A stretch of 55,748 nt of DNA from IMG/VR virus record IMGVR_UViG_3300044981_000063, positions 1 to 55,748 of that record. One strand, written 5' to 3'. Position 1 is the first letter of the stretch; every line of letters begins with the position of its first letter. The notes under the pieces were generated by a model. That model was not told where the DNA came from, did no database searches, and was given only the letters and a program-made list of their open reading frames with translations. Shown one piece after another: positions 17,893-42,483 of the stretch. The DNA comes from a virus. The translations under genes were made by a program, and so were the position numbers.

Positions 17893-18019
17893 GGGCATAG
17901 CCTTCTGAGGCGCATAGGAACGCGCCATGACCCTGAAAGTTCATTATGGGTGTGGTCTTAGCGCCAGAGCGCCTACGATCCGCATAGTCTCGGAGGGTGA
18001 CTTCGCTCACGGCTGAAGC

Positions 18020-20145: not shown

Positions 20146-20483
20146 TATTGGCTCCCGGCGGTTTGCAAGATGCGCGGCCGTTCTTGGGGATGCGCCTGTC
20201 TTAATAGCTCGCCAGGCCTTACCAGCCTCGCCATGCGGGAGAATATATCTCTTATCTGAAAAGGCACGACACTGCTAGGATGGGCGCACCAATCGTTAAA
20301 AGCTGCCTCGATGGATTCCCAGATTTTATTCTCTGGCGAAAAACCATTGGCACCATATCGGCCGATCCAGTTTCCGGCTCTGGCAGCGGCTTCAACGGTC
20401 TGCTGATCTTCCTCCGGAAGATTGGCGAACGCTTCCGCAGGCGTGAGCGGTTCCCATTTGCGTAAGTGCAGCGTCCCTCTCAT
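20145..20483 (-). CDS. Small virion or assembly-related protein
   Basis: A 112-residue protein with a C-terminal helical region and a WESIEAAFNDW motif. It starts by ATGA overlap with the end of the 1118-residue ejection protein gene and ends by TAATG overlap with the fibre gene, so all three are translated together. Likely structural or an assembly aid; no recognised domain. Confidence 0.5.
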   Translation of the reverse strand: MRGTLHLRKWEPLTPAEAFANLPEEDQQTVEAAARAGNWIGRYGANGFSPENKIWESIEAAFNDWCAHPSSVVPFQIRDIFSRMARLVRPGELLRQAHPQERPRILQTAGSQ

Positions 20484-23400
20484 GGACTGGCCATCAAAGC
20501 GGCTGATGCTGTGGTGGCACGGATAGCGCGCGCCAAACCATTTCCAGCTTTGGGCGTCGCCTTGGTTGGCGCCTTCGATAGCAATTGCTTTGCAACAGAA
20601 GGATTGAGCATGGCCTTGGTCACAAGCTGGTCGACGCGATCGACGCCAGCGGCGCGGAGGCTTTGGATAGCGTCAGCGCCAAATCCGCCAAGGAATGTTC
20701 CAACCGGCCCCCCAAAATGTGCCCCAATGCCAGCGCCAAGAATATCAATGAACCGGCGCGTCGCCGGAGATGACTGCTGGTCATGGGTGCGGACCCCAGT
20801 GATATCCTGGGCAGTGTTGGAACCGCCTGGAAGTTTGATCGCGTTCTCCGACCGCTTAGCGCGGTTGATGTCCGCTGCAATGGCTTCGATATTGGCGACT
20901 TCTTCCGGCTTAAAGACGGCGTTCAAGGCGATGCGGTTTTGTTTGACGAAAGACTGGAATGCGTCGGCTTTGATCAGATTGGTCCCGGACGTTCCGGCTT
21001 CAGTATTCGAAATGAACCGCTTGGCGATATGGTCAGCTACTGCTTGGCGCAGGCCTTCCATGGCGAGGGGGTCTTTAGACGCCACGCGGGCCAGTTCGCG
21101 CATATCGGCAACCGCTGTTTTTCCGCTGAATAGGCCGCCAACAATCCGGGTGACATCATCGGAATTTGTGGCCCCCATGATGCGTCCAATAGCACCCTTC
21201 TGAGCATCTTTCAGGGTAATCTCTCGCAGCCTGGTCGCGTCGGTAACAGCGCGCGAGGCATCCGCCGCAGTCGCAAAAGTCTTTTGGATGTCGTCTGGTA
21301 AAGCACGCAAGGCGTCGGCATGGGAGGCCTTCCACGCAGCATATTTCCTCGGGTCCAATGTGCCATCATCGCGCATCGCGGCGCGGCGCAGACTGGATGC
21401 AGCGTAATCTTGGATAATTGGAACGGCGCGATCCTGCCCCACAGACCGGTAAAGCGCCTGCATATCGTTGAAGCCAGTCGGACCAGGATGAAAGAACCGC
21501 TGCGGAACGCGCGCCTCTTGGAGTTTGTAAAGATCGCTCGCGCCAGCCTTTGCCAGCACCGGCCCAACAGGATTTTGCCCGAAGGTGCGGGCGCGATCCC
21601 TGGTGGCAGCGGTCGCAGCGGCTAGGCGCTCGGCTCCGGCGGCGTCGAAAGTGGGGGAAATATAGCTGGGCTGTTTTTCGGTTTTGGCGATCTCATCCAG
21701 CGCGGCTTCCCACGGCTTTTCAAAGCCGCGCGGAGGCTCAAACTCACGACGCACGCCAGCGACTGACCCCATTTCGGCGTAGGCCTCGCCAACGCGGCCA
21801 ATGAGTTGGTTTATTTGCGTCGAATTCTTTAGGCCAGCAGCCGATATCGCAGCCGTCATTTCTGATTTTGGGAGGCCAGCCTCAAGATCGCGTACACGGA
21901 CAATCGGAACGGAGCGCAGACCAAGTTGTTGCGCTGCTGCCAGTCTGTGCTGGCCCTCGATAACATTGCCGTCTTGGTCAGCGATAATCCGTTCAAAGTA
22001 TCCTTTCGGAGACTTCATCTGTTCCGCGATCTTCGATACGCGCGCAGGATTGTCCCCTTCAGACGTTCCGCCGACTAGGCTTTCCGTCGGAACGGTTTCG
22101 TTCCCCACGACTTTGCCGTTGGTGAAATTTGCGTCCACCACGTTCGACAGGTCTTCCTTGGGGGGGCGAATATCCCTTAATGGCCCAACATCTCCCGATA
22201 GTCCTTCAATGCCCGCAGCACCGATAGATCGCCCCGCTGCCGGAACGACTGTTCCATCAGTGCCAGTTGCTTTAGCTGTTCCTTTTCCGGCAGGTGCGCG
22301 AGCACTGGCACCACCGACATCCCCGGTCGCGTCACGGGTTGCATAGAACTCATTTTGCCACTCCTGTAATTTGGCAAGCGTTGAATTGGCTGGGCTGATT
22401 TCGCCGCGGGCTACTGCCGGGGCTTCATTGGCGATGCGCTCGCTGATCGTGTTATTCAGATTGTCCTGGATCGCGCTGCGCAATTGGGTGAGTCGCGCAT
22501 AGGACGGTGAGCGGCCATTCGTGATCAGTTCGTTGCGCATTTCAGTCGAAACGCGGCTGCGTAAGGCAATGAGGTCTTGAACCGGTGCCAAATCCGGCAT
22601 GGCCTTCGCCGCATCGAATATCGCGCCTTCCTCACCGGACATCGGCTTGGCGGTCTTTGGAATATCCTCGGCGATATCGTTGGCCGCGCCTCTGGTCTGG
22701 GTGACGTTGCCTGTCAGATCACCATGAGGATCGACGGCGGTCCATAAACCTTTCTCGCGGGCTCTCGCGGCATCTTCGGCAGTCTGTACGGCACCCCGGA
22801 CTTGCTCGCCATATTCGTCGGCCGTGAGATTGCCACCGGTATTGGCCGCCGCCCCTTGGGCCTTGGTCAATAAGTTATCCACATGCTGGTTGGTTTGAGC
22901 TTCGAGGTCGCGCCACTGACCGTTCAAAGCCCCCGCCAAGGCGTTGGGATCACCGCCCTGCTGGACCTGGCTTAAGGATTGAACTCGGGCCTCATTCTGC
23001 TCCCCGCGGCGCTGGGCGAACAAATCCGGGTTTTTGGTGGCAACCTCCCGCTCAAGGCTACCCAAGCCCTCGTCACCGGTCTGCTGGAAGGTGGTGGGCT
23101 GGGAACCCGGGACTATCTCCTGTGGCCCCTGCGCCAGCATATCCCGGACAGTCCCGACATCGCTTGCCCTTTTGGCCAGCAGAGCACCCGCCTGGGCCTC
23201 AGCAGCGCCTTGGGAGAACCGGGCGGCTATCGGGGCCACAACCGGCGCAGCGGCGTCAGCGACCGCCCCAGCGGCCCGTCCGATTAGTTTAGGGGCAGTA
23301 TGTGTGATGGCTGCGGTGGCTAGACCCCCTGCTAGGGCTGCGGCTGGCTTCAAGGCATCTGGGGCGAGTTCTTGGGCACCGGTGGCACCCGTCACCACAG

Positions 23401-23836
23401 CGGCGCCGGTCATCATGTTCCGGAGCATATTGGCGACGCTGATCTCGCCCTCACCGGGGATCAGGGTCTGGGGCAGCACGGTCCCAAGGCCTTGGGCAGT
23501 TTTTTCCAAGAAAGTATTGGCGCGAACCTTATCCAGTCCCGTAGCCTTCAAAACTCGATTCGACGTTGCCCTTCCTGCATTCTCGGCATCTCGCGTCTGA
23601 AACGGCATCGCGTCTGGATTGGAATTGGCAATCATGTTCACGAAACTGCCAGGGATTTTGGCTACGCCGGCCAAGAAGTTCTGACCTAGACTGGACCATG
23701 AGTTGGAGGTGTCCGGGGGATTCTCGACATCGTCCATCTGCTGGAAGACATTTCCGGATGGCGTGTTGCTATTGGCAGGTGCCGAAGCGGACGCAGGTGT
23801 GGCAACCCCATCCATCTGGGCGAAGACGTTAGGCAT
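20480..23836 (-). CDS. Large internal virion (ejection) protein with ParB-like domain
   Basis: An 1118-residue protein in the place where short-tailed phages encode DNA-ejection proteins. The N-terminus has a repeated NVFAQMD / NVFQQMD element (residues 3 and 29), then hydrophobic Ala/Gly-rich segments (about 140-205) suited to membrane insertion, then long helical regions. Residues about 575-655 contain a ParB/sulfiredoxin-like element with GNVIEGQHRLAAAQQLG followed by VPIVRV. The C-terminus has another Gly/Ala hydrophobic patch. Probably ejected into the cell to form a DNA conduit; the ParB-like part may act on nucleic acid after entry. Confidence 0.7.
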   Translation of the reverse strand: MPNVFAQMDGVATPASASAPANSNTPSGNVFQQMDDVENPPDTSNSWSSLGQNFLAGVAKIPGSFVNMIANSNPDAMPFQTRDAENAGRATSNRVLKATGLDKVRANTFLEKTAQGLGTVLPQTLIPGEGEISVANMLRNMMTGAAVVTGATGAQELAPDALKPAAALAGGLATAAITHTAPKLIGRAAGAVADAAAPVVAPIAARFSQGAAEAQAGALLAKRASDVGTVRDMLAQGPQEIVPGSQPTTFQQTGDEGLGSLEREVATKNPDLFAQRRGEQNEARVQSLSQVQQGGDPNALAGALNGQWRDLEAQTNQHVDNLLTKAQGAAANTGGNLTADEYGEQVRGAVQTAEDAARAREKGLWTAVDPHGDLTGNVTQTRGAANDIAEDIPKTAKPMSGEEGAIFDAAKAMPDLAPVQDLIALRSRVSTEMRNELITNGRSPSYARLTQLRSAIQDNLNNTISERIANEAPAVARGEISPANSTLAKLQEWQNEFYATRDATGDVGGASARAPAGKGTAKATGTDGTVVPAAGRSIGAAGIEGLSGDVGPLRDIRPPKEDLSNVVDANFTNGKVVGNETVPTESLVGGTSEGDNPARVSKIAEQMKSPKGYFERIIADQDGNVIEGQHRLAAAQQLGLRSVPIVRVRDLEAGLPKSEMTAAISAAGLKNSTQINQLIGRVGEAYAEMGSVAGVRREFEPPRGFEKPWEAALDEIAKTEKQPSYISPTFDAAGAERLAAATAATRDRARTFGQNPVGPVLAKAGASDLYKLQEARVPQRFFHPGPTGFNDMQALYRSVGQDRAVPIIQDYAASSLRRAAMRDDGTLDPRKYAAWKASHADALRALPDDIQKTFATAADASRAVTDATRLREITLKDAQKGAIGRIMGATNSDDVTRIVGGLFSGKTAVADMRELARVASKDPLAMEGLRQAVADHIAKRFISNTEAGTSGTNLIKADAFQSFVKQNRIALNAVFKPEEVANIEAIAADINRAKRSENAIKLPGGSNTAQDITGVRTHDQQSSPATRRFIDILGAGIGAHFGGPVGTFLGGFGADAIQSLRAAGVDRVDQLVTKAMLNPSVAKQLLSKAPTKATPKAGNGLARAIRATTASAALMASP

Positions 23837-26217: not shown

Positions 26218-27407
26218 TATGCGGCCCTTTTCATCGGAGGAAGGTTAGAAATCCTGCGGTAATTTACGCGGTCGAAATTGTCATAGCCCCGGCGGACTGC
26301 GCCCGGATCAACGCGCCTGACTTCGTCAGCCATCACGCCTAACTGAGTCTGCGCCATGCCTTTGAGCCTGTAGGAATACACGGCCAATCCAGATTCCAGC
26401 CTTCCAACCTTCTTGATATCGGTCTTGGCGCGACGATCAGACAGCATGTCGAATTCGCCGTTTCCATCGCCGGTATAGGTCGGCGTTGTGGGAGGTGGCT
26501 GAAAGAGCGCCTGCAGCGATGAATTATTAAGCAGTGTCCCAAAATTGTTTGCTGCTCCTGCATAACCACTGGCTGCGGCAGTTCCGGCATTGGTGAGCGA
26601 ATTGCCAGCGTTCAATGCGCCAGTTGTTAAGGCCGATGCCTGCTGACCAGCACCTGCGGTAAGTGCACTGCTAATTCCAGAAGCAGCAGCAGACCCAGCA
26701 TTACCGGTCATGGCAGCGGCATTCTCGCCCAGGTTTGCGATGCCGGCGATTTCATTGCCATAGGTACCGTACTGGGAGGCGACGCCGCCAAGACCTGCGC
26801 CGTAACTCCCCAGCTGCGAACCGTAATTGCCGAATTGATTGAGAGCGGTTCCATAAAGCTGAGAGGCCATTCCCTGACCGAAAGATTGCGAATCCTTGAG
26901 TTGGCCGCCCGAGAGCAATAATCCGCGCGATGCTGCCGACCGGTCAAGTGACTGCTGGCCCTGCTGCAAGGCGAACTGATAGCCGGGATAATTCTGGAGA
27001 GCCGAATTCATCCCAGCCGCTCCTTGCGGACCCAATCCGAGCATCGACGAAATCGGACCGTTGGAACCATAGAGGCTCGCCAATGGGCCACCTGGACCAT
27101 AGAAGGACGAAAGTTGCCCAAGAGTGGAATTGACCGGACCCTGGGGCCCCAGGAACGACATCAGTCCAGATTGGGCAGTTTGGCCGTTCTGATTGTACGG
27201 TGCCAGATTCGCACTCGTCTGGTTGTACATCTGCAGCTGGGCGGCGGTAGCTTGCTGTGATGCTTGGGCAGATATCTGGGCAGATTGCGTGGCGGCGTTA
27301 GCCTGCGTATTGGCTGCGGCCTGCGCGCCGCTCGCCTGCGTGTTGGCAGAGAGCAAAGATGCGCCGCCACCAATTACCGCCCCGCCGATGGCCGCCGTGA
27401 TTGCCAT
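26217..27407 (-). CDS. Virion protein with C-terminal S74/intramolecular chaperone domain
   Basis: A 396-residue protein. The first 320 residues are repetitive Ala/Gly/Gln/Ser (QANAATQSAQISAQASQ and so on), probably a helical or fibrous region. The last 75 residues, SDRRAKTDIKKVG then LGVMADEVRR and a final FDRVNYRRI, are the peptidase S74 / endosialidase-chaperone domain, which trimerises fibres and is often cleaved off. The N-terminal segment (ITAAIGGAVIGGGASLL) is a hydrophobic glycine-zipper helix resembling phage tail-needle or ejection proteins. Confidence 0.7.
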   Translation of the reverse strand: MAITAAIGGAVIGGGASLLSANTQASGAQAAANTQANAATQSAQISAQASQQATAAQLQMYNQTSANLAPYNQNGQTAQSGLMSFLGPQGPVNSTLGQLSSFYGPGGPLASLYGSNGPISSMLGLGPQGAAGMNSALQNYPGYQFALQQGQQSLDRSAASRGLLLSGGQLKDSQSFGQGMASQLYGTALNQFGNYGSQLGSYGAGLGGVASQYGTYGNEIAGIANLGENAAAMTGNAGSAAASGISSALTAGAGQQASALTTGALNAGNSLTNAGTAAASGYAGAANNFGTLLNNSSLQALFQPPPTTPTYTGDGNGEFDMLSDRRAKTDIKKVGRLESGLAVYSYRLKGMAQTQLGVMADEVRRVDPGAVRRGYDNFDRVNYRRISNLPPMKRAA

Positions 27408-27979
27408 TAGGCGGGTTCCTTCAACAGTTTACCGAATTGATTTTCGGTGTGGCCATAGCCAAGCACCTGCAAAACGTTGCCAAGCGTGAGATCAGTCCCG
27501 AACATGCTGTCTGGAATATCTTGGCCGGTAATTTCTTCGACCTCATGAATATCCGAAATCGTCTGGAGAGAATCGCCATATTCTCCCAGAAGCGCATCGC
27601 TCTTGGCATGGTAAAAAACCTTGGAAGCGCCCATGGCACGTAAAGCCTTTTCCACTTCGATGATCAGTGCGATCCCGGTTGCCCCACGCTCTTCTTTGGT
27701 CAGGAAAATCACATCATTGACGGCGAATACATCGCCTTTGTAATGCCGATGGCGCATGACGTAGAAGGCATTATAACCGACGAGATCACCGTCACGGCGT
27801 GCGGACCAAGTGATAAACCGACCTTGCCGCTCATCTTCCAGATAACCGGGCCAATCCGGGTCGAGAGCGATAGCGTCCCTGTTATGCGCCACCTCTTCCC
27901 AGTGCTCGCGCAAGAGCGCTTCAAGGCCGGAATCCAAAAGGCCGGCCAAAGGTTCGCGCGCGATGACGATGGCGCTCAA
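27407..27979 (-). CDS. GNAT-family acetyltransferase
   Basis: A 190-residue protein. DGDLVGYNAFYVM, AVNDVIFLTKEERGATGIALI and EKALRAMGASKVFYHAK follow the beta4-alpha3-beta5 order of GNAT N-acetyltransferases, with the acetyl-CoA pyrophosphate loop in KEERGATGIAL (an RGxxG/A-like motif). Substrate unknown. It is embedded in the tail region and overlaps the 2OG oxygenase gene, so it could modify a virion or host-surface-interacting protein. This is inference. Confidence 0.7.
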   Translation of the reverse strand: MSAIVIAREPLAGLLDSGLEALLREHWEEVAHNRDAIALDPDWPGYLEDERQGRFITWSARRDGDLVGYNAFYVMRHRHYKGDVFAVNDVIFLTKEERGATGIALIIEVEKALRAMGASKVFYHAKSDALLGEYGDSLQTISDIHEVEEITGQDIPDSMFGTDLTLGNVLQVLGYGHTENQFGKLLKEPA

Positions 27980-29202: not shown

Positions 29203-30636
29203 TTATTGCATTCCTAACTCAATGTCAGCATATGCGCCGATCAAGACGCGCTTTACTGGATCGGAAATAACGAGCCTAAATGTCCACTGATATGCCTGTC
29301 CTAACGAAAGCCAGCGCAGACGTTTGGTAAATTCTCCAATCTTACCCATAGAACGCCAAGGCTGCAGGACCGACCAAGTTTTGCCGCCGTCCTTGGACCA
29401 TTGTAGCATGGCCTGCGGAGTTGATCCCTGGCCTGATGCTGTTCCTACACCGGTCTCCATGTCGATTTCGAGCCGGGGAATGAAAATTCGGCGCCTGTCC
29501 TGGGCTAATGTGGAGGAGCAAACCAGCATCTGCATGGTGTTTCCATCCTCCGTGTAATTATTCCAGTCCAGAATAAAAATTTTTCCTGTCAGAAAATCTC
29601 CAACCAGGATGCGCGTATAAATCTGGATGGCGCAGTTCCCGCGCCAACGCATCAAATCTGCATTAAACGAATCTCGGGAATATCTCTCATGCCAAAACTG
29701 TGTCGAAATATCATAGACCCAAGAATGCGGGACGGACGGGAATGTCACATGGATCATTTTATGGCCTTCCAATGTATAGGTCATGCAGACCGCATCGGAA
29801 ACGCCGCCATAAGTGGCAAAGGCGTGCTCCACCCCATGCTGAGACACCCTAACCGGAACATTGCCTTGGAGGCGGTAAAAGACCAGATCCTGGCCGAGGA
29901 AAAAAAGCGCCTCGTCTTGGGCGATCACAGTAAGAGGTGAAACACAGCCCTTCTCGATCACGCCGCCAGCATAACGTTGGAATGGAAATGAAGGAGTTCC
30001 AGCGTCGTACCACATCTCGATATGATTCTGGCAGAACAGGAACAGAAGCTGGAGATTCTGAGCAACTGCCACGAGGAATCCTGGCTGCGCTTCTGCGGTC
30101 GCAAAATCAAGACCGGAATAGGTCATCCCGTCATATAGCGCGGACAGAAAGAATTCGTTGGTCCCAACGCGATCAAAAACGAAATATCCATCAAAAAATA
30201 TGACGGTGTTGGCAGGATAGAAATTTAGATTGAATATTTGCTGAAAGCGAAGATCAGGAAAGATATTTGTCCGATTTGGATTGTAGTCCCAGCCTCCAAA
30301 GCCATTGACGATCACAAGCTCAATGCCGTTATCGGCCATTGAGACATTCCCGGTCCCGGTGATGCCAGAACCAATAAATGTCGCAACTCCGGTAAAATCA
30401 AAACTATAAAGACTGGTGCCAATTACGGCAAAGAGAACGCCGTTGAAGTTCCAAAACCCGCGGACATCGACATCCGAAACCTGCGACCATGTGGTTAGTC
30501 CCGGTGCGCCGAATACCGGAACTTGGCTCTTGGCTCCCTCCGGTTGTTTTTCTAGGAAGGCGTTGGACACCTGTTGGGCCGAGAGCGGGATTGATCTGCT
30601 CGTATATGATTGCGTAGCAAATAATATTTGCGGCAT
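29203..30636 (-). CDS. Tail hub protein, P22 gp10-like (packaged-DNA stabilisation)
   Basis: A 477-residue protein. The N-terminal SRSIPLSAQQVSNAFLEKQP and KSQVPVFGAPGL, the repeated beta-blades (DVRGFWNFNGVLFAVIG, and VISDAVCMTYTLEGHK-type segments) and the C-terminal RLRWLSLGQAYQWTFRL match the beta-propeller of P22 gp10-like proteins. They sit below the gp4 ring, close the tail and hold in the packaged DNA. The neighbouring gp4-like gene at 30640 supports this. The gene is of normal length. Confidence 0.75.
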   Translation of the reverse strand: MPQILFATQSYTSRSIPLSAQQVSNAFLEKQPEGAKSQVPVFGAPGLTTWSQVSDVDVRGFWNFNGVLFAVIGTSLYSFDFTGVATFIGSGITGTGNVSMADNGIELVIVNGFGGWDYNPNRTNIFPDLRFQQIFNLNFYPANTVIFFDGYFVFDRVGTNEFFLSALYDGMTYSGLDFATAEAQPGFLVAVAQNLQLLFLFCQNHIEMWYDAGTPSFPFQRYAGGVIEKGCVSPLTVIAQDEALFFLGQDLVFYRLQGNVPVRVSQHGVEHAFATYGGVSDAVCMTYTLEGHKMIHVTFPSVPHSWVYDISTQFWHERYSRDSFNADLMRWRGNCAIQIYTRILVGDFLTGKIFILDWNNYTEDGNTMQMLVCSSTLAQDRRRIFIPRLEIDMETGVGTASGQGSTPQAMLQWSKDGGKTWSVLQPWRSMGKIGEFTKRLRWLSLGQAYQWTFRLVISDPVKRVLIGAYADIELGMQ

Positions 30637-30639
30637 CGG

Positions 30640-31644
30640 CTACCTCGTTTGCGACGAGGCGCGGCCAAAGTAAACTGAGCCTTTTTCACGATCCCAGCCT
30701 TCGATCAATTCCTTTTTCTCCATCGCCATGATTTTAATGCGATCCCAGCGTTCTGCCGGAATGGAATATCCCGGTCCAAGCTCTTTGGCGAGATTCCAGA
30801 TAATGGCGTTCTGCCATTCCTGCGGAAAATCTCCAGTATTGGCCTGTGTCACCCAATCTTGGATAGGACGATAGGCGGTGAAGCGCAGGGCATATGTTGC
30901 GTTGACCGGCACATTCCAAACCCACATCTCACCCTGGTCGCGTGCAGGATTATAGAAAACCTGATTGACCAGACCGGGGGTATTTGGACTAGGCAGGTTC
31001 ATGAAATCCTGCCGGGATGACATGGGGCCTATCGGGGTGACGATGCCGCCCCAATCAGGTGCCGCTACGGTCCCGGCCACCAGATTAGGCGCATATTGAA
31101 GCCTGCGGGCCTGGGGAACGTCCAGGGGCCTAATCAGGGCAGCGGAAGCCGGATAGGTGATCACAGATGCCTGGGCATTGGCTGGGCCCGCAAGGGGCGC
31201 TGCGGGGGTCACATTGCCTCCTGAGGGAGGGGTGCTCACCGTCGTCCATTGCATATTTCCGGCCGCCAGCAGGATACCGAGGTTGTCGCCACTATTTATC
31301 CCCGTTGTGACGCCAAGATTTAGAATGCTCGCGCCCGCGTTATAGGAAACCTGAAGCTGGGAATAGACCCATGAATTGGCGTCGCAGGCCTGATCAGTTG
31401 TCGTGCCACCTAGCAAATAGCGCCGTTGGTATTGCTGGAGGAATAGAACGGCCTCTTGCTCCGTCCAGATATGAATGCCGGTCGCTTCCCACTCCTTGGT
31501 CATGGAATTTAGGGTGGAAAGGCCATCGGCATATTGACCTTGCGTTGGCGTTTCATCCTCGTTGATCACGGCCATCTTACGAAAGGCCTGCGTGATGATC
31601 TGCACCGTGTTTTGGTTCCATGCCGTGATCCCTGAGGCAGTCAT
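30640..31644 (-). CDS. Head-to-tail adaptor, P22 gp4-like
   Basis: A 334-residue protein. TQAFRKMAVINEDETPTQGQ and the LSTLNSMTKEWEATGIHIWT helix at the N-terminus, plus AYRPIQDWVTQANTGDFPQEW and LAKELGPGYSIPAERW at the C-terminus, follow the alpha-helical core of P22 gp4. A beta-rich insertion (about residues 95-230) makes it twice the length of gp4. It binds the portal ring and extends the DNA channel; some gp4 proteins have muramidase activity, which is not shown here. Confidence 0.7.
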   Translation of the reverse strand: MTASGITAWNQNTVQIITQAFRKMAVINEDETPTQGQYADGLSTLNSMTKEWEATGIHIWTEQEAVLFLQQYQRRYLLGGTTTDQACDANSWVYSQLQVSYNAGASILNLGVTTGINSGDNLGILLAAGNMQWTTVSTPPSGGNVTPAAPLAGPANAQASVITYPASAALIRPLDVPQARRLQYAPNLVAGTVAAPDWGGIVTPIGPMSSRQDFMNLPSPNTPGLVNQVFYNPARDQGEMWVWNVPVNATYALRFTAYRPIQDWVTQANTGDFPQEWQNAIIWNLAKELGPGYSIPAERWDRIKIMAMEKKELIEGWDREKGSVYFGRASSQTR

Positions 31645-31940
31645 GCCACCACCTCAAGATACTCGCGGGCGATGTGCTCAATGTTCTTGCTTGGCCACAT
31701 GACCTTGACGCGATGCTGGCGCTGCTCGAAACCGATGACCTCGCCGACGATATCTTTATCTCTTGCCCGGCCGCCAGCCTTGGATTGGGAAAGCTTCTTA
31801 TGAGCAGCGGCGTTTAGGACCACTTTCGTACCGTCTAGGAGTGCCACAGCAGGATTTCGTAAGGCAGCATTCTGTGCCTTTAGCGCAGCCACTTCGGCTA
31901 GTATTTCCTCCATCGTCTTCGGTTCTTGTGTCTCGCTCAT
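31641..31940 (-). CDS. Coiled-coil hypothetical protein
   Basis: A 99-residue protein: helical N-terminus (TMEEILAEVAALKAQNAALR) and a basic beta-rich C-terminal part (GEVIGFEQRQHRVKVMW) that resembles an SH3/KOW-like barrel. It overlaps both neighbours (ATGA). Probably an assembly factor or minor tail-joining protein; not recognised. Confidence 0.55.
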   Translation of the reverse strand: MSETQEPKTMEEILAEVAALKAQNAALRNPAVALLDGTKVVLNAAAHKKLSQSKAGGRARDKDIVGEVIGFEQRQHRVKVMWPSKNIEHIAREYLEVVA

Positions 31941-32398
31941 GGCCCCACAGATCCGTAATTCACCACATCGTTACCAGATTGCGCCGTATAAGGCATTGGG
32001 GCGGCAATAGTAATTCCAAGCGTAGTTGAAGGGCCGACCTGTGCAGTATTAAACATCACCCCATTGTCAAGCATGATCCCGACGGCATTGCCGGCCGTAA
32101 ATGTATTGACGGCATTCAGGGGAATGAAAGTGGCCCCGATAGCAACATTAGCCGAGATTTGTGCGTAAACGGGGCCATAGAATCCCGGGGGAGGGCTGGG
32201 ACGGGGATTTGGAACGGTTTGTATGTCAGGTACCCCGCGAACGAAATCCTGTGGCTGGCGCTCTTCCCAGAGGTCTTTACCTACGATCAACCCGTTCCAT
32301 TCTTGCTGAGTATCATCAGCCCGTCGCACGAAGCCAGACCGGTCATCGGCCCTGAAAAACGATCCTGGGCGGTATTGAATTCCTCTTTGCCGTCCCAT
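31937..32398 (-). CDS. Structural protein of the head-tail junction
   Basis: A 153-residue protein. I chose the ATG at 32398, preceded by AAGGAATTC. N-terminal SGFVRRADDTQQEWNGLIV and ERQPQDFVRGVPDIQTVPNP resemble phage proteins encoded between portal-side and tail genes. The C-terminal half is a beta-sheet-rich domain. It is likely a minor virion protein. Confidence 0.6.
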   Translation of the reverse strand: MGRQRGIQYRPGSFFRADDRSGFVRRADDTQQEWNGLIVGKDLWEERQPQDFVRGVPDIQTVPNPRPSPPPGFYGPVYAQISANVAIGATFIPLNAVNTFTAGNAVGIMLDNGVMFNTAQVGPSTTLGITIAAPMPYTAQSGNDVVNYGSVGP

Positions 32399-32461
32399 AG
32401 TGGAATTCCTTGTCAATCACTTTTGGACAATAGCATCATCTTCGTCGCCGTTAGGCTGATT

Positions 32462-34369
32462 TTAACTACCGCTTGAAGTTTGCGGCACGATAATTGCCAG
32501 CCGTGCCTTCGTCGCCGCGAGGTTTGTCTCCGCAGATGCAATATCTGACTTAGCTATAGTGAGAGTCGTAGCGGCCGCAGCGGCAGCCAAATTTATCTCA
32601 GCTGCTGCTAGATTCGCCTGCGCCTCTCCCACGAGGAATAATATCTCAGCAATAGGCAGAGTCGAAGTAACGGGCACCGGAGCGGGCGTAGGTGCAGGGC
32701 TTGGCGCAGGGATAGGCGTGGGTGCTGGCGCAGGTGCTGGTGTTGGATTCGGCAGAGTGACGACGCCCTGAGGAGCCACATTGATCGAAACTCGATCCTG
32801 CATGAAATTCTGCTTCAGGATCATCGCGTGGTTGAGCGCATAATCGGCTTCGATGGTCGGCCACGCGCTGAGAATATCCAAGCCCGGCAGTTTCATGCGG
32901 GCAAGCCGGACGGCCAAAGCGAGCGCAGCGTGGGTGTCCAGCAACGAATAGCGGTCCCAATTGATGAACTGGCCACCGCCTGTCGGGTCTTTGACCAGCG
33001 CCGCGACCTGGGCCTGTGTGAGGTTGTTGGAGCCGCCTGCCGTTGCATTCACTGCTGCGACAAGGTTCGTCCATGCAGCCCCCCAGGTCAAGAAATCCAT
33101 CGGCTTCATTGTCGCCAGGACGGCAGTATCCAGGAACGAGTTGGCGAAAGCCGGAGAGACTACGAGATAATACGCCGTCGGCATGGCGACGGGCCAGCCG
33201 GCTTTCCCGTTGACGCGTGGTTGTAGATTACGGGTGATCGTCCAGAGGTAAAACACCTGCCATTCCGGAAAATGCTCCGCGATGAAGGCCAGCGTGATGT
33301 TCATGTAGTCCTGCTCGAAGAATGGGACTTTCGCCACCATCGGGAAGCACCCGAACGTGTCGAACGCCGGGTTGTTCATGTAGGTCGCGGTGAAGAACGC
33401 GAGCTGGTTGTCGAGGATCGTCTTCCAATAGCTGGATGGGTGAAGCCACGCCGGGACGGAGCCGAAGTCTTTTTCGTAGAGAGCCGTCGCATAGGCGGCT
33501 TGTGCGATGTCGCGGAGAATCCAAGCCGCCGTCCGGGTCTGGCCCTGAGAGACATGATAGGTGGTTGACGAACTCCAGAAATTGTCCTGGAGCATGCACT
33601 TCGTCGTGGCGAACTGCATGATCTCCAGATAGTAAATATCATGCGTGGCCAAGAACGCCATGAATGCTGGCGACGGATTATGGCCCGCTTCCCAATTCCA
33701 GCGGCCCGATGTCGATGCACCAGCGGGAGCGTCCGGTCCGATATAATTTGCCGCCCCTTGGGCCGGCCCGTAGTCCTGAATCTGTGGGTGTTTGATGAAA
33801 TCGAATGGTTGTCCCGTCGCCGGATCGATGCACCAGATCGGCGCTGACTGGAACCCCTCCACTGTGTTCATCATCGGGACGGGATCGCCGGTCAGCATGT
33901 AATTGGCGTCCCACTCGGGAACGAATCCGATATCGTTGCGCTCTCCAGTGGTGCCCATGTTCTGGGTGATGCCGTCTGCGGAGCCTGGAACTGGGACGGG
34001 AGCGGTTGGGGGTGACGCCTGCGCTATGTTCGGGATCACGCCATATGGCAGCGTGTCGTTCGCCGCGAGTATCTGCGCCGGGGTGAACTTGATCGAAGCC
34101 GGTGTCTGGCGATAGGTCACGCGCCCACGCCATTGAAGCTGCGGAACGGCTAGGGTCTTGACCAGCGTGGTGCCGCTATAGAAATCAATCGTGAAGGCAC
34201 CAAGATCGAATGCGGGCAGAGGCGCAGCGGGCCATTGCTCTACGCCAAGTTGGAGCGCGGCATAGTTCGGACGAAAGAACGCCTGAAGTCCGGGTAGTAT
34301 GGGGCCATTAGGGACATTGGGAAACGCATAATCCTTGCCGTTGATGTGGGCGACGAGATTGTCGATCAT
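32462..34369 (-). CDS. Large virion protein with helical domain and Pro-rich linker
   Basis: A 635-residue protein. After a beta N-terminus (about 1-110), a helical domain (about 235-500) contains RTAAWILRDIAQAAYATALYE, HFPEWQVFYLWTITRNL and a YLEIMQF/HALA pattern that recalls the alpha/alpha-toroid of glycan-active enzymes. A 26-residue Pro/Ala/Thr linker (about 542-567) follows, and a final 68 residues of Ala-rich coiled coil. The enzymatic idea is inference; no catalytic residues are identified. No signal peptide, unlike the four genes that precede it in the transcript. Confidence 0.5.
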   Translation of the reverse strand: MIDNLVAHINGKDYAFPNVPNGPILPGLQAFFRPNYAALQLGVEQWPAAPLPAFDLGAFTIDFYSGTTLVKTLAVPQLQWRGRVTYRQTPASIKFTPAQILAANDTLPYGVIPNIAQASPPTAPVPVPGSADGITQNMGTTGERNDIGFVPEWDANYMLTGDPVPMMNTVEGFQSAPIWCIDPATGQPFDFIKHPQIQDYGPAQGAANYIGPDAPAGASTSGRWNWEAGHNPSPAFMAFLATHDIYYLEIMQFATTKCMLQDNFWSSSTTYHVSQGQTRTAAWILRDIAQAAYATALYEKDFGSVPAWLHPSSYWKTILDNQLAFFTATYMNNPAFDTFGCFPMVAKVPFFEQDYMNITLAFIAEHFPEWQVFYLWTITRNLQPRVNGKAGWPVAMPTAYYLVVSPAFANSFLDTAVLATMKPMDFLTWGAAWTNLVAAVNATAGGSNNLTQAQVAALVKDPTGGGQFINWDRYSLLDTHAALALAVRLARMKLPGLDILSAWPTIEADYALNHAMILKQNFMQDRVSINVAPQGVVTLPNPTPAPAPAPTPIPAPSPAPTPAPVPVTSTLPIAEILFLVGEAQANLAAAEINLAAAAAATTLTIAKSDIASAETNLAATKARLAIIVPQTSSGS

Positions 34370-34372
34370 GTC

Positions 34373-35677
34373 TTATTCCTCTCCGGCCCAGCGGCGCGGT
34401 ATGAAGTCTTCGTTATCGCCCAGCATAATATCCGCTGGGATCAAGGTTTCGATCAGCCTATGCCGTGCCGTGGCAGACCCGGTACCGATGTCGAACGCGC
34501 TAATCCGAATGCTTATATATGGGCGCTTGGTCGTCGTAGCCGAACTCCACGCCGCGTTTTTCCGCGTGTAATAATCGTTGCTCTGACTACCGTTGAAGGT
34601 GGTGTCCATAGCATTGGCCGCGTCAAAAACAACGTTGGTCGTTGTGATATTTCCAGCACCGGTCGCCACAAAGCCTGCACGATACGCGGTCGCTGCCGAA
34701 AAAGCCGCTGGTGCGTAGCCGAAACATTGCGCGGCTTGATTGAAGCTTCCTGCGCCGCCGCCAGTTGCGCGCGACCATAGCGGGTTTGGGGAAACTGTCC
34801 CCAAAACATTTGGCGTTGAAGCTGTGTCGGTGAGTTCGGCATTGAAGGTTGCAGTGGAACCCGCTACTGCCACACCGCCGCAAGTGGCGTCAATATACCC
34901 GCCAAAATTGAACAGAAGCCCGATACCTGTTTCATTGAACCCGCTGCTGCTGTTATAGGCGTCGGCGTTCGGGCTGTTCCAAATATCGTATGGGTAGCTG
35001 CCCATAAGCGTGGCGATTTTGCCGCTTCCTAGTGTGAAGTAAATGGAAGGCGGTGAGGTGCCGTTATTAGTCCAAGATACTCCGCTATTTGTGGACCCGT
35101 TTAATTGAAGGCCATATCCACCATCGTAAAGTTGAGTAACGCCACCAAGCCGGATATTGCCGGTGTCATAGCCGGATGTTTTCAGATGGACTACAATCGG
35201 TTGACCGTTGGTAACGGTTGGCGGTGTTGTCAAAGCCGGACTTGTCGCCATGCCGCCATTGGGGAATGCGCTGAAAGCTTCCGTTGCCGACGCACCGGCA
35301 GAAACCAACCCGCCAGGATTTACCGGTGGTCCACTCGTGCCCCAATTCTCGATACTCCAAACAACTGACCCGGTGCAGCCAGAACAAGTTTTGGATGCAG
35401 TATTTATGGTAATGGTCGAAATTGTATCGGTGCCGCCGTTTTGAAAAGTTTTATCCTGTCCATAGAGATATCCAACTATGGCGATTTCATTTGTTGCGGC
35501 GCTGAGATTTGTGCCAATGCCGCCGCTGTTCGCCCATGGCCCAGGTCCGCCACTATCCGGGATAGCAGGAAAAACAAGCCCCTGCCCCGGCACCTGCGCA
35601 ATATACGCCCGTGCGGGCAGAGTTTCAGGAAGCACGAACAGCGTAGACGCGAGAAGAATGTTTGCGATCTTCCTCAT
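34373..35677 (-). CDS. Exported beta-rich protein, signal peptide (paralogue A)
   Basis: A 434-residue protein that begins MRKIANILLASTLFVLPETL and ends its signal peptide at ARA (about residue 24). The mature part is Ser/Thr/Asn/Gly-rich, beta-rich, with a CSGCTG pair and further cysteines. It shares the LTDTASTPNVLG and NGG-W pattern with the next gene, so the two are paralogues. No enzymatic motif. Being exported while embedded in the virion operon is unusual: fibres normally lack signals. Possibly periplasmic or outer-membrane adhesin-like. Confidence 0.6.
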   Translation of the reverse strand: MRKIANILLASTLFVLPETLPARAYIAQVPGQGLVFPAIPDSGGPGPWANSGGIGTNLSAATNEIAIVGYLYGQDKTFQNGGTDTISTITINTASKTCSGCTGSVVWSIENWGTSGPPVNPGGLVSAGASATEAFSAFPNGGMATSPALTTPPTVTNGQPIVVHLKTSGYDTGNIRLGGVTQLYDGGYGLQLNGSTNSGVSWTNNGTSPPSIYFTLGSGKIATLMGSYPYDIWNSPNADAYNSSSGFNETGIGLLFNFGGYIDATCGGVAVAGSTATFNAELTDTASTPNVLGTVSPNPLWSRATGGGAGSFNQAAQCFGYAPAAFSAATAYRAGFVATGAGNITTTNVVFDAANAMDTTFNGSQSNDYYTRKNAAWSSATTTKRPYISIRISAFDIGTGSATARHRLIETLIPADIMLGDNEDFIPRRWAGEE

Positions 35678-35678
35678 G

Positions 35679-36893
35679 TCACTGCCCCGTCGCGTTGTCT
35701 ATGGCGACAATGCCAACAGCCCACCACGGAATTTGTGTTTGCGTAGGGCTTCCCCAAGCGGCGCTGGTCGTGTTGCGTTGAACCATTTCGCACAGATTTC
35801 CGCACCCGAATAGAAGGTTTATCGCTCCCACGGGGATATTCAAAATCATAGTGGAAACATTGTTGGCGGTCGTAGGCGACATCGCAAAAACGTACTTCGT
35901 GTTGCGGGTTATCGTGACTCTGCTGGAACTCCCTGAGACCAGCATAGGAATGCAGGTTTTCCCTTGAGTGCCGCCATTGTGGTTAGCCTGCGTACCCAAT
36001 AAAGACGTAGACGCCAAGACATTCGGCGTTGATGCCTCATCGGTAAGTTTCCAAGTTACGTTAGCGGTTGGTAAAATACTAACGTTGGCGCAGTAGCTGA
36101 TTTCTTGATTATCGAAGGGAGTTTGAAACTCAAGACCATATTCGAGTGGCGTCGAACCGTTGTTCCAGCTTGTTTGCCCGCTCGTATAGTCAAGCGGCAT
36201 GATGCCTTCGAATGTGGCGTAAGTGCCGTCATCGGCTTCGAACATCACGTCAGGAATTTCAGTTCCGCCCGCGCTCACACTTGCAGCGGTATATGTTGAG
36301 CCGCCATTCGACGAAGATATGATTCCGGGCCCGAAAGGAGAGGGATCGGTGCCAAACGGACCATCAGTTGTCAGCGAACCGCTCGTGTATGCGGAAAAGC
36401 TGAGAACTTCTACAAACTCCTGGTAACAATTCACCACGCCAACGGCGGTAAAATTCGGCGACATGTTGAAAGAATTTGCGGTAACCGCAGAGCTTAACAT
36501 TGTCGCAAGCGCGAGGCCGCTACCAAAAGATGTTCCCGTAGGTACGCCAGGATTGCCTGAACCTGTCGAAATAGGATCGATTTCAATTTGAAGGGTCCAA
36601 GTGCCGGATTTTGTTCCGGCCAAAAATCCAGCGTTCTGAATATTTTTTGAACCGCCGTTGCGACAGGCAAGTGTCGGGCTCCAAAGCCGTCCGACAAACG
36701 CACACCTGGAAGTCGAGGTATTCATGGTGCAACTGGTATTAGCTGTACCGTCCTCCAGTGTGCCCATGTTTATAGGCCATTGCGGCCATTCAAGCGGCTG
36801 GCCACCAATCTCCTGCATCGCCGCCAGCGCCGGAGACGTGAACAGCGCGAAGGCGGCGGCCAGCGCGAGGGTGCTGAATTTACGCAGCATCAT
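35679..36893 (-). CDS. Exported beta-rich protein, signal peptide (paralogue B)
   Basis: A 404-residue protein. Signal peptide: MMLRKF, a long Ala/Leu/Phe hydrophobic core, and an ALA cleavage site at about residues 22-24. The mature protein has several paired cysteines (SCTMNTSTSRC, CGNLC) and beta-rich repeats; the LTDEASTPNVLAS motif is shared with the 34373 gene. I chose 36893 over 36902 because it overlaps the upstream stop as ATGA. Cysteine-rich exported proteins fit disulphide-stabilised surface or periplasmic roles. Function unknown. Confidence 0.6.
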   Translation of the reverse strand: MMLRKFSTLALAAAFALFTSPALAAMQEIGGQPLEWPQWPINMGTLEDGTANTSCTMNTSTSRCAFVGRLWSPTLACRNGGSKNIQNAGFLAGTKSGTWTLQIEIDPISTGSGNPGVPTGTSFGSGLALATMLSSAVTANSFNMSPNFTAVGVVNCYQEFVEVLSFSAYTSGSLTTDGPFGTDPSPFGPGIISSSNGGSTYTAASVSAGGTEIPDVMFEADDGTYATFEGIMPLDYTSGQTSWNNGSTPLEYGLEFQTPFDNQEISYCANVSILPTANVTWKLTDEASTPNVLASTSLLGTQANHNGGTQGKTCIPMLVSGSSSRVTITRNTKYVFAMSPTTANNVSTMILNIPVGAINLLFGCGNLCEMVQRNTTSAAWGSPTQTQIPWWAVGIVAIDNATGQ

Positions 36894-38092
36894 TGGTCGC
36901 ATTCCATATCAATTTGGGCATATTTTGCGGTAGCGACCGTCTTCAACTGAATGCCAAAAATATCGTTCGCGGTCACGGTGGTTGTCCATCCGGTCAAGGT
37001 GGTAGAGTGAAGCGCGGTACCAGTGGAAAGCGCCGGGAGTGCCGATGCGGTGATCGTATTGGTAACGGTAGGAATTGAGGTGCCGGTAGCTATCTTCCAC
37101 ACGTCGAAGGTAACCGTGCCAGCGTCAACGGTGATGTTGTACGCCGATATGGTGCAGGCATACGGCACGGTGAAATAGACGATTGGACCTGAGGTTAACG
37201 CAGATCCAGTCGTGTCTCCGAAGGTAGTGCCGAAGTCACGGATGCGGGTAATAGCCGGGTTACTTGAGAACTTGGTGAAGGTCGCCGGATCAGTGCCAAT
37301 CGTGTTTACGGTCGAAGTGATGATCCATTGGGTCGTTCCATTCACCGTTCCATTGATAACTGGGATAGCCCCCGTGTTGTTAATGTCGCTGGGCTGGTCG
37401 TAATCGAGCGCACGGGTCAAGATCAGTGGCAGCGCAAGCGCCTGGACCTGGGTGACGTAGTAAATCCCGTTGAATGCTCCACTTGGGCTTTGCGTGTCGT
37501 TCTTGACTAGGAGGCGTTGGCCTAGAGCGGTGAAAGTAAATCCATCCACGGTGAGTGCCGTATTATTCGCTCCCGTGAGAGTCGCCCCAATGCCAGAAAC
37601 GCCATTGTTGTAGGTGTAGGCCGATGTATCGCTCGCCTGTGTCGTAGCGGCTTGGACGGCCACCGCAGGATTTACACCCGCCACGGCATTCGCGATCCCG
37701 GTCGTGACATAGGCGGTGGAGGCGGCCTTGGTGCTGTTGTCGGACGCGGCCTGAGTGGGAACAATCGGGCTTCCGGTAAAGGTCGGGCTCACTGTTCCGG
37801 CAGGGCCGCCTGTACCAGAAGAGGCACCCCCTAAAAGTGTACCTACCCCAGTCCCGAGACCGGAAACTCCGGTGCTAATCGGCACGCCAGTAATATTGGC
37901 GCCATTTCCACTAGACGGCGTTCCAAGGGCGCCAGCGCCCTGTAGGCACGTTCCTGTGGTTGTACCGAATGAAGAACATGGGCCAGATGATCCGCTGCCA
38001 CCGCCGCCCGGAATGGTCTGCGCATATGAATTAGATACACAGACACCAAGACCAACAACTAGCGCGAGAAGAAGACGATAGACCTTTTGCAT
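36890..38092 (-). CDS. Exported tail-fibre-like protein, signal peptide
   Basis: A 400-residue protein starting MQKVYRLLLALVVGLGVC, with a YA cleavage site at about residue 24. After the signal comes typical tail-fibre sequence: GTPSSGNGANITGVPISTGV, GGASSGTGGPAG, then SDNSTKAASTAYV, which normally begins fibre repeat regions. The C-terminal 150 residues are beta-rich. A phage fibre with a secretion signal would reach the periplasm rather than the assembling virion in the cytoplasm. It could be a receptor decoy or surface-altering protein; that is inference. Confidence 0.6.
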   Translation of the reverse strand: MQKVYRLLLALVVGLGVCVSNSYAQTIPGGGGSGSSGPCSSFGTTTGTCLQGAGALGTPSSGNGANITGVPISTGVSGLGTGVGTLLGGASSGTGGPAGTVSPTFTGSPIVPTQAASDNSTKAASTAYVTTGIANAVAGVNPAVAVQAATTQASDTSAYTYNNGVSGIGATLTGANNTALTVDGFTFTALGQRLLVKNDTQSPSGAFNGIYYVTQVQALALPLILTRALDYDQPSDINNTGAIPVINGTVNGTTQWIITSTVNTIGTDPATFTKFSSNPAITRIRDFGTTFGDTTGSALTSGPIVYFTVPYACTISAYNITVDAGTVTFDVWKIATGTSIPTVTNTITASALPALSTGTALHSTTLTGWTTTVTANDIFGIQLKTVATAKYAQIDMECDQ

Positions 38093-38102
38093 ACCATCCT
38101 GC

Positions 38103-38624
38103 TTATTGGAAATTCGCGGTGAATGTGTCTGTTGCCGTCCCTGTGATGCTCACTTGATCCGTCAAGACACCAAGGCCGCCAACCGCGCACGCTATTGACC
38201 CTCCTGGAGTTGTCGCCGTTCCGGGGGGTAATCCGAAGGCCGTGGCTTTTGTTGCGCTGCCGATCGGCCCGAAAAAAACCCACATCTCGTTAGCTTGGGA
38301 ATTGTTCTGGATCAGGCAACCATTGCGCCCTGCCGTGGAAGCTTGAATGGATTGAAAAGTATTGGTCACCGAAATTGTGCTGGATAGATTTGTCGATGTG
38401 AGGGCGGCAACCGTCACAGTGGCGGAGACGGTCGCGTTGACGCAGGATTTTCCGTTGACATCCTGCGTGATGGCGCGGTTTGTCCCGGCGACATAAGTAG
38501 CCGGAGGTGTGCCGCAGACCGCTACGACTATAGCAGATGAGCTTTGAGCTTCTGCTGGCATATTGCAGGCCGCCAAGACAAAGATGCCCATCACCCACGG
38601 GAGCATGAACAAAAACTTTCTCAT
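38103..38624 (-). CDS. Exported/lipoprotein-type protein with phage decoration-like repeat
   Basis: A 173-residue protein. The N-terminus MRKFLFMLPWVMGIFVLAAC has a lipobox (LAAC) at residues 17-20, so it may be lipid-anchored; an AEA site just after it is an alternative signal-peptidase I site. The mature part VVAVCGTPPATYVAGTN and RAITQDVNGKSC is a motif set seen in small phage virion proteins encoded near capsid and fibre genes. Its start overlaps the 38621 gene stop (ATGA). It may be an envelope-anchored form of such a protein. Confidence 0.6.
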   Translation of the reverse strand: MRKFLFMLPWVMGIFVLAACNMPAEAQSSSAIVVAVCGTPPATYVAGTNRAITQDVNGKSCVNATVSATVTVAALTSTNLSSTISVTNTFQSIQASTAGRNGCLIQNNSQANEMWVFFGPIGSATKATAFGLPPGTATTPGGSIACAVGGLGVLTDQVSITGTATDTFTANFQ

Positions 38625-39046
38625 TGATGGATTCCCTTAGTGCCGCGGATTTTCAGCGTGTATTGGGAACTTACCTGGGGTAGCACGGTAGAGAGGAGGA
38701 TTTTTCCGGTGGCACCAACTAAGGTCGGTGGGATCACCAATCCGCCGACCTTATCGAAATTGAATTTCCCATATCCCTCCAGAAGCAGGCAGTTGGCCGG
38801 CGTGGGAGAAGCATCCCAAGTGAGTTTTACGCCCATATTCTGGACGCTATACTCGACTTCCCTAATTTTCAGATGCACGCCAGGATAGAGAGTCTGCCCT
38901 ATGAGGTTCACGCCTAAGGGCCCGGAAGGAGATCCATCCACCTTCACCACATTGGTTTCACCAGTACCGTCGGAAAGATTGGTAAGGACATAAACCCACC
39001 AATTATTTCCATTTTCGACAAGCTGAGATGTCACGACATCTGCCAA
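38621..39046 (-). CDS. Small tail or decoration protein, TTG start
   Basis: A 141-residue beta-rich protein with SVQNMGVKLTWDASPTPANCLL and VGGLVIPPTLVG segments. GGAG lies at good spacing upstream of TTG 39046; no better ATG exists. No signal peptide. The terminator at 39061-39100 precedes the gene, so it could begin a separately transcribed unit if termination is efficient, or be read through. Likely structural. Confidence 0.6.
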   Translation of the reverse strand: MADVVTSQLVENGNNWWVYVLTNLSDGTGETNVVKVDGSPSGPLGVNLIGQTLYPGVHLKIREVEYSVQNMGVKLTWDASPTPANCLLLEGYGKFNFDKVGGLVIPPTLVGATGKILLSTVLPQVSSQYTLKIRGTKGIHQ

Positions 39047-40694: not shown

Positions 40695-41444
40695 CTAGGC
40701 CTGTTTCGCGGGAACCGACAAGGGGGCCGCATGCTTTTCCAGATAGGCGATGGCGGCGCGGAGGGTTTCAATCGAATCGTCTGCACCGCGGCGCCCGATC
40801 ATCGTGTTGCAGCGTCCGCATAACAAACCTCGAACCTTCAATGTCCTATGGTCATGGTCGATGCTCATGCGCCTGGGCTTGCGTTCTGGGTGACGGGGAT
40901 TGACCATACTTTCCGGCTTGCGGCAGATGGCGCATTTGCCGCCCTGTTCCTTAAACATCTCATCGCGGCGCTCGCGCGAAACGCCATACTTGCGCTCATC
41001 GCTCCATGTCTTTCCGTACTCTGAATGATATTCGCGCTGGTCCTGAGTTTCCGGACTGCGAAGGGTGGCGAGCCAGAACATATTAGTCGCAGACCACGGC
41101 TCATCCGCCCTGGCACGGCGCAGTTGATAATCTCCGTCTGGTCGGGTCGGCACATCGGCAATAAATGCCTCGAACTTATCCCAGGAGGTCGGGAATTGGC
41201 CCGGATATCTGGAGCGGAGGTTCTTCCAAGGCTGCTTAAGCGGATGCTCGGCTCGTAGATAATGCTTGGAGCATAGGTTTTTGGAAAAGGCTTTCTCTTG
41301 GCATCCTTCGGCTTTGCATTGGCCGCTATTCACAACATTGATGCGAGCGAGGGTGCCGCGCTTCTTGAGACGATGGTAGCAAGGGCAACAATACCCCCGC
41401 GCCAATATCTTTTCGTTGAAACATTCTGGGTTGATGCATTTCAT
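40695..41444 (-). CDS. Endonuclease VII-like HNH protein (homing-type)
   Basis: A 249-residue protein. The C-terminal QGGKCAICRKPE, SIDHDHRTLKVRGLLC, RCNTMIGRRGADD motif order is that of endonuclease VII-family HNH nucleases. The first 130 residues hold two further cysteine-rich knuckles (CINPECFNEK, GYCCPCYHR, CKAEGC) and a coiled region, suited to DNA recognition. It is transcribed separately from capsid and tail genes, from its own promoter, which suggests a mobile insertion rather than a late structural function. Confidence 0.8.
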   Translation of the reverse strand: MKCINPECFNEKILARGYCCPCYHRLKKRGTLARINVVNSGQCKAEGCQEKAFSKNLCSKHYLRAEHPLKQPWKNLRSRYPGQFPTSWDKFEAFIADVPTRPDGDYQLRRARADEPWSATNMFWLATLRSPETQDQREYHSEYGKTWSDERKYGVSRERRDEMFKEQGGKCAICRKPESMVNPRHPERKPRRMSIDHDHRTLKVRGLLCGRCNTMIGRRGADDSIETLRAAIAYLEKHAAPLSVPAKQA

Positions 41445-41562: not shown

Positions 41563-42483
41563 TCACACACCGGGCGTTGCCCAGTACGACCGCCAATCCG
41601 TCACGCCTACTGAGAATCTCATATAGAGTGACGCTTTTGCGTTTTTACTATCGAACTCATTGTCAGTATCGAACATAGGCTTATCACGCCACATAAATTG
41701 CGCACCTGCCGGGGCATTTGTGCGGATGTAGAAGGCGGTTCCGGAGAGCAGATAGTGGTTGACCATAATGCCCTTGCGGAACATGCCGGACGCCTTGATG
41801 ACGTTGATGGCGTTGGTCGAGGTGTCGTTCTGCAGAACGGAATGGAGGATGCGGTTGGCGTCATACCAGCCCACGGGCGAGATGCCGAGGGCTTCGGGGA
41901 TCAGGGCGATGCGATTGCCGCGGTAGTCTGTGGCCTGCATGATCTGGATGCCGAGATCCTCGATCGCCACTTCGGAAATGTCCGCACTGGTGTTGAGCAG
42001 GTTGGACTGATTCCCAGAGATGGTGGGATGGGTGGCGGAGAACAGCGCTTGGCCATCGCCGATCGGGAAGGCAGGATTGAAGCCTTGGTTGAAAGGATTG
42101 GCAGCAACGATTTCTTCGGTCTGGCGGCCGGCGAAGGCCAACATGGCGGCGCGGCGCTTGGAGACGACTTCGTAAAGATTATCCCGCAGTTCCTCGAAGG
42201 TGACGATATAGCCGCCGCCGTAAGCGATGTGAGTGTAGCGGGTGACGGAGCCCTGGACTTCAGTGTCGTAGGTGACGGCTTGGCCCTGGTCCTTCTCACG
42301 CAGCACGGAGAAGCCGGAGATTTCGACCTCTTCCTCATAGGCCTTGTCGGAAGTTACGACATCGAACCAGTCGGGATATTCCGCCTCATGTTCGTCGTAT
42401 TCGCGACCCCACCAAAGCTTGATCCCGGGCCACAAGGCTTTGGGGTGCGCGCCTGTGTTAATTACGCCGCCAACTGCTGCCAT
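41563..42483 (-). CDS. Major capsid protein
   Basis: A 306-residue protein resembling Mu gpT/HK97-fold major head subunits. KAYEEEVEISGFSVLREKDQ, a YTHIAYGGGYIVTFEELRDN segment and FSATHPTISGNQSN are the characteristic landmarks. Several hundred copies form the icosahedral shell. It follows the decoration-type gene at 42510, and a strong terminator follows its stop. Size is typical. Confidence 0.85.
   Translation of the reverse strand: MAAVGGVINTGAHPKALWPGIKLWWGREYDEHEAEYPDWFDVVTSDKAYEEEVEISGFSVLREKDQGQAVTYDTEVQGSVTRYTHIAYGGGYIVTFEELRDNLYEVVSKRRAAMLAFAGRQTEEIVAANPFNQGFNPAFPIGDGQALFSATHPTISGNQSNLLNTSADISEVAIEDLGIQIMQATDYRGNRIALIPEALGISPVGWYDANRILHSVLQNDTSTNAINVIKASGMFRKGIMVNHYLLSGTAFYIRTNAPAGAQFMWRDKPMFDTDNEFDSKNAKASLYMRFSVGVTDWRSYWATPGV

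Follow-up and report, generated by a model that had tools for sequence, protein, structure and literature searches.

The window, that is, the whole stretch of DNA analysed here, is an IMG/VR virus record of 55,748 bp. Its virion genes lie on the minus strand in the order portal, capsid, small head genes, cassette, gp4-like adaptor, gp10-like head closure and DNA-ejection proteins. The major capsid protein, which served as the query for finding relatives, is encoded at 41563..42483, the gp4-like head-tail adaptor (Ad3; phrog_637) at 30640..31644, and the gp10-like head closure protein (Hc3; phrog_578, E 1.6e-108) at 29203..30636. Judged by these genes, with gp10-like closure, gp4-like adaptor and DNA-ejection genes ordered downstream of the capsid gene, the phage is a podovirus with P22-like connector genes. 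No DNA-level match to the window was found among phage records. Some further features were noted in the same region and elsewhere. Right behind the capsid gene, and at the same place in several relatives, lies an Endonuclease VII-type gene (40695-41444; E 2.7e-21). A GNAT-acetyltransferase-like gene (27407-27979), just under the Pfam cut-off, is located within the virion operon; acetyltransferase genes are also found near the connector genes of Alcaligenes phage QDWS535 and of JC1, and CRP-902 has one downstream of its capsid gene. Among the DNA-ejection genes, a protein of 1118 aa (20480-23836) contains a ParB-like/methyltransferase-associated domain at aa 598-652. A palindrome with overlapping arms of 31 nt that are 81% complementary occupies positions 2829-2878.

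The cassette is bordered at its 5' end by a small conserved virion-operon gene (38621..39046) and at its 3' end by a conserved gene at 31937..32416; all its genes are on the minus strand. The first signal gene (38103..38624) codes for 173 aa, with a predicted Sec signal at aa 1-26 (38547-38624). It is followed by a gene for 400 aa (36890..38092) with a signal at aa 1-24 (38021-38092) and a C39/C49 pair, by a gene for 407 aa (35679..36902) whose signal extends to aa 27 (36822-36902), and by a gene for 434 aa (34373..35677) with a signal at aa 1-24 (35606-35677). The final cassette gene (32462..34369) codes for 635 aa without a signal and has a Pro/Ala-rich stretch near its C-terminus; the sole relative found for its product is gp39 of EBPR siphovirus 1 (25% identity over 30%). 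Packing is operon-like: 38103 starts inside the stop of 38621 (an overlap of 4 bases), and 36890 overlaps 35679, which could start equally well at the in-frame ATG at 36893. The preliminary description had placed these genes in the tail region of a virion operon. They do lie inside the virion operon, but between the capsid and the gp4/gp10 connector genes and thus not strictly among tail genes.

Signals were called by means of a scorer made for this analysis, which evaluates a charged n-region, an uncharged hydrophobic core and small residues at positions -3/-1, in combination with conservation. The products of 34373, 35679, 36890 and 38103 reached scores of 5.26-5.35, and none of the 24 other window genes tested exceeded 2.4. 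All four N-termini display a positive n-region, a hydrophobic core and an AxA-type site; the predicted cuts are PARA|YIAQ (34373), PALA|AMQE (35679), NSYA|QTIP (36890) and AEA|QSSS (38103). The Sec-type N-termini proposed for the four ORFs were thus borne out at the expected positions, as was the lack of signals in 38621 and 32462, which both score zero. Any signal score at all was obtained for 13 of 267 mechanical ORFs. The best-placed two of these 13 on the coding strand are the small ORFs 16875 and 17692, in what is likely the lysis region: the former (16875-17276) has a lipoprotein signal and the latter (17692-17928) is small and hydrophobic, and they probably code for an outer spanin and a holin.

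The search with the capsid protein yielded 44 related virus contigs as well as prophages and phage contigs in bacterial assemblies. The bacterial matches come mainly from Gluconacetobacter species, plus one Sphingomonas MAG whose contig could be a mis-binned phage; all are diderm Alphaproteobacteria. The borders of the cassette are conserved (38621 at 30 loci, 31937 at 26 loci), and the content between them is variable. Nearly all cassette genes carry a Sec signal in L125, L126, L130, L131, L136, L137, L141, L142, L144, L149, L154 and L157, and in other relatives the slot is empty or occupied by signal-less genes, one of which (153 aa) resembles a gene beside the tail fibre gene of an isolate phage. 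For the related loci as a whole, signals were detected in 28 of 90 cassette genes, compared to 12 of 681 genes outside the cassette; this is an undercount, as for instance the signal of L149:12405 escaped detection. Every in-frame start near the N-terminus was tested for all genes, controls included. Furthermore, a signal-bearing fibre-like gene lies between 31937 and gp4 in 4 of the 12 prophage loci of Gluconacetobacter and in the Sphingomonas contig. The capsid-related isolates Alcaligenes QDWS535, CRP-902, HTVC027P, GB2A and ct2G2228 were rejected as carriers; their corresponding region is devoid of signals.

Two N-terminal families head the cassette, one of which, the CGTPP family, includes 38103. 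They occur at 13 and 12 loci in virus contigs, and in 25 of 25 cases a signal directly precedes the conserved domain; a few of these loci, which fell under the scorer cut-off or were unscored at contig ends, were judged by eye. Homologues beginning only after the signals, named in the preliminary description as evidence that would speak against export, were looked for in both families and none was found. In L124/L219 and in the Sphingomonas contig the CGTPP gene is relocated, once to a place just behind a gene of the tail-fibre type. A tail-fibre type N-terminus of the form GxPxxGAxLxFYxSGTSTPxxTYSD is also encoded in the window, at 19225-20145, and in L219 and L225 a signal-bearing module lies directly behind a gene of this kind.

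In 7 contigs, the window included, the stop of the 38621 homologue overlaps the start of the first signal gene as ATGA or GTGA. Since this gene begins inside the stop codon of its neighbour, its start is pinned at the signal. The codons of the signals contain many synonymous differences, in keeping with a segment that is translated, although it is less conserved than the mature part. Weak ribosome-binding sites at some starts would fit mis-called starts or chance hydrophobic N-termini. Such an artefact is, however, so improbable that it can practically be neglected, given the conservation of the signals in homologues, the start/stop overlap with the upstream gene, and the fact that 36890 offers no alternative start before aa 69.

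Cysteine content provides a second line of evidence. Exported proteins of Gram-negative bacteria favour even numbers of Cys, since these residues pair into disulfides (PMC7678975). The 51 signal-bearing proteins, a set picked by signals and fibre context and not by cysteines, contain 15.8 mature Cys per 1000 residues. The corresponding value is 3.05 for 77 proteins that share the fibre motif but lack a signal (MWU p 1e-14), 7.8 for signal-less cassette genes (p 2e-4) and 2.87 for window virion genes without a signal. The mature Cys counts of the four window proteins are 4 (34373), 8 (35679), 4 (36890) and 4 (38103). Among the 49 proteins with any mature Cys, 45 have an even and 4 an odd number, compared to 19 even and 28 odd in signal-less controls; when each homology cluster is represented by a single protein, the ratio is about 17 to 2 (p 4e-4). 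Two proteins found later, and thus out of sample, are both even. The C-terminal domain of the signal-bearing protein gp19 of BcepC6B contains C272 and C336, and both are missing from the same domain in the signal-less fibres of KpV74 and PP90. As a caveat, disulfides can also occur in virions that are assembled in the cytoplasm, as in phage Milano (PMC10811340).

It is conceivable that the hydrophobic N-terminus is an uncleaved anchor of a virion protein assembled in the cytoplasm and not a working export signal. The genes do belong to a virion operon, and among the fibre-motif proteins from virus contigs a signal is present in only 4 of 81 (three of these 4 adjoin further signal genes), leaving 77 without one. 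An anchor function, however, predicts nothing about Cys parity. In 14 proteins the signal itself contains an odd number of Cys, and 13 of these 14 become even only after the signal is removed; together with the consistent AxA sites and the enrichment of Cys, this makes an anchor quite improbable. Even parity after signal removal is a mark of periplasmic disulfide folding and lends independent support to export. The conserved N-termini, the start/stop coupling, the Cys enrichment and the even parity all back the view, put forward in the preliminary description, that fibre-like proteins are exported, and export of the four proteins is highly likely. Cleavage, localisation and folding in the periplasm, and disulfide pairing are predicted from the same data.

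For 38103, a lipobox had been proposed. The LAAC sequence is real; a lipoprotein reading is nevertheless weakened, as the Cys is absent from most homologues. The protein carries the conserved domain CGTPPxTYxxGxNRxxTQDxxGxxC, and all homologues keep a signal just ahead of it, usually ending in AxA|Q. Because the homologues mostly lack a lipobox yet all possess a signal, processing by signal peptidase I appears likelier than lipidation. The lipobox of 38103 is probably incidental, and lipidation is unlikely to be the way in which the CGTPP family works. Neither a membrane anchor nor a C-terminal aromatic residue recurs consistently in the mature parts. A host origin of the CGTPP protein was considered and dismissed: a search of 385 genomes of the class and 398 genomes of the family gave one positive each, both times the same phage-bearing contig.

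The fibre nature of the proteins is most evident for 36890. Both motifs pointed out earlier, SDNSTKAASTAYV and CGTPPATYVAGTN, were found; SDNSTKAASTAYV is the fibre motif of 36890, in which the motif DNSTK..TAYV is present. Its central fibre domain (aa 113-274) is homologous to the signal-less fibre L023 (43%) and matches the chain 'orf22' of PDB entry 9EFK (E 1.3e-20), in which 18 copies are present. Its C-terminal beta domain corresponds to phrog_35197. For 34373, 35679 and 38103 there was no Pfam or confident PHROG match, and 34373 and 35679 had no close homologue in viral, genome and phage collections. These two are paralogues over their full length, as had been suspected (26% identity, E 4e-14), and their assignment as fibres is based on position and paralogy, with relatives recognised in the window only. 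The AlphaFold models of 35679 and 36890 are poor (pLDDT 38 and 41), and a PDB search with the latter gave weak beta-sandwich matches only. Among the relatives, L125:14077-15828 ends in a Peptidase_S74 domain, and L142:9491 and L068 match tail-fibre PHROGs. The modular build, with a short conserved N-terminal domain, a variable C-terminal part, a fibre motif or fibre domains, and Peptidase_S74 in relatives, makes it probable that the four proteins are of the fibre/adhesin type.

One relative, L219:7270-9624, is a pectin-lyase-like spike (784 aa) whose N-terminus is hydrophobic and signal-like and is followed by 20 Cys. Its presence in the same module, and low-confidence matches of the 36890 model to carbohydrate-binding modules, would fit a role as exported enzymes or adhesins in removing the capsule or exopolysaccharide that surrounds a lysing cell, which would help progeny to spread, without binding to virions. 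We consider such a role improbable; an enzyme domain was recognised in none of the four window proteins.

The best explanation of the whole, which we hold with slight preference, is a module of exported fibres that attach to progeny at lysis. The four proteins would be made late, together with capsid and tail proteins, exported by the Sec route, processed by signal peptidase I, and folded with disulfide bonds in the periplasm. The finished fibres would wait there and attach to progeny once holin and spanins open the envelope, which would give the released phage its host-binding fibres. Conservation of the signals and their coupling to the upstream gene, Cys enrichment and parity, and, for part of the set, fibre homology are the elements of this scheme that the sequences themselves support. 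Attachment at lysis is favoured because of the position in the operon, the fact that signal-less modules alternate with the signal-bearing ones, and the build of conserved N-terminal and variable C-terminal parts. Speaking against it, both conserved N-terminal domains are always found with a signal, whereas a pure virion-docking domain might also occur without one. Moreover, one of these domains spans phages with different capsid proteins, which makes it hard to name a docking partner that all would share. For joining the virion at release, taken by itself, the chances seem about even.

The export evidence would apply equally if the proteins were kept on the host envelope or debris, where adhesin-like decoys or exclusion factors would occupy receptors, as T5 Llp and Cor do, and thus prevent competing phages, or progeny of the phage itself, from binding to the dying cell. 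That the N-terminal domains are found solely with signals agrees with this idea, as does the gene neighbourhood: genes of known exclusion lipoproteins adjoin receptor-binding genes, llp being located downstream of the gene for pb5 (PMC9586334). On the other hand, there is neither a conserved lipobox nor a consistent anchor or C-terminal aromatic residue in the mature parts, the proteins comprise several domains and are of considerable size (up to 1098 aa in relatives), their genes belong to a late operon while exclusion pays most early, and display on the surface needs a route across the outer membrane. We regard retention on the envelope as possible but less likely. A surface decoy on intact cells in particular is less likely, because the signals are of the soluble type, without a conserved lipobox or an outer-membrane anchor.

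Tailed-phage virions are taught as products of the cytoplasm, and signal-bearing fibre-like proteins are unexpected if the particles are built there. If fibres pass through Sec and gain disulfides, tailed phages would have a second assembly compartment. This would explain how cysteine-rich, chemically tough fibres are tolerated and predicts that fibre function depends on the disulfide machinery of the host. If they are instead retained at the envelope, the proteins would form an extensive class of exported phage adhesins that has so far escaped notice. As a tentative generalisation, to which we assign somewhat less than even chances, tailed phages of diderm bacteria may build their virions partly in the periplasm, with Sec-exported fibres that are disulfide-bonded by the host's Dsb system and attached to otherwise finished particles only at lysis. 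The finding is a testable challenge to assembly exclusively in the cytoplasm. In the literature, neither a paper on exported tail fibres nor virion proteomics covering signal-bearing members was found.

Several known systems share individual traits with the cassette. In podovirus JC1, one tail fibre of the slot between capsid and head closure was detected in virions by mass spectrometry (PMC9144972); the JC1 fibres of this slot lack signals and were rejected as signal-bearing counterparts. T5 Llp and Cor are, like the window proteins, exported phage proteins encoded beside genes of receptor-binding proteins (PMC9586334). They are, however, small outer-membrane lipoproteins, whereas proteins of the window type are large, comprise several domains and mostly lack a lipobox. 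The window proteins, with 173-434 aa, are outside this small-protein class, and a conserved lipobox cysteine is missing. In filamentous phages, the virion proteins pIII and pVIII are made with a Sec signal, and their assembly takes place in the inner membrane as the virion is extruded, but unlike the window phage these phages have no tailed virion and do not lyse the cell. The fibres gp48 of KpV74 and gp49 of PP90 (Autographiviridae) have a C-terminal domain in common with the signal-bearing BcepC6B gp19 and L142:9491; they are usual cytoplasmic virion fibres, without a signal and without Cys at the gp19 positions. Gp19 of Burkholderia phage BcepC6B and orf035 of Xanthomonas phage PBR31 resemble the window proteins in that a signal precedes fibre domains, the number of mature Cys is even, and fibre or spike genes are adjacent; gp19 additionally has a short fibre stretch in common with 36890. 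Each is a single gene between spike/fibre and lysis genes, whereas the window cassette lies between capsid and gp4. Gp49 of Bcep781 and gp48 of Bcep43, both Burkholderia phages, are likewise fibre-like, carry a Sec signal and are encoded in a tail operon; they are annotated as 'possible tail fiber; possible signal peptide domain'; the mature Bcep781 protein contains 14 Cys. In contrast to the window, theirs is a single gene of an unrelated phage, in a tail operon with baseplate wedge and tape measure, and its N-terminal domain is not common to the window genes. The old annotation of Bcep781 gp49 is a prior hint of exported fibre-like proteins.
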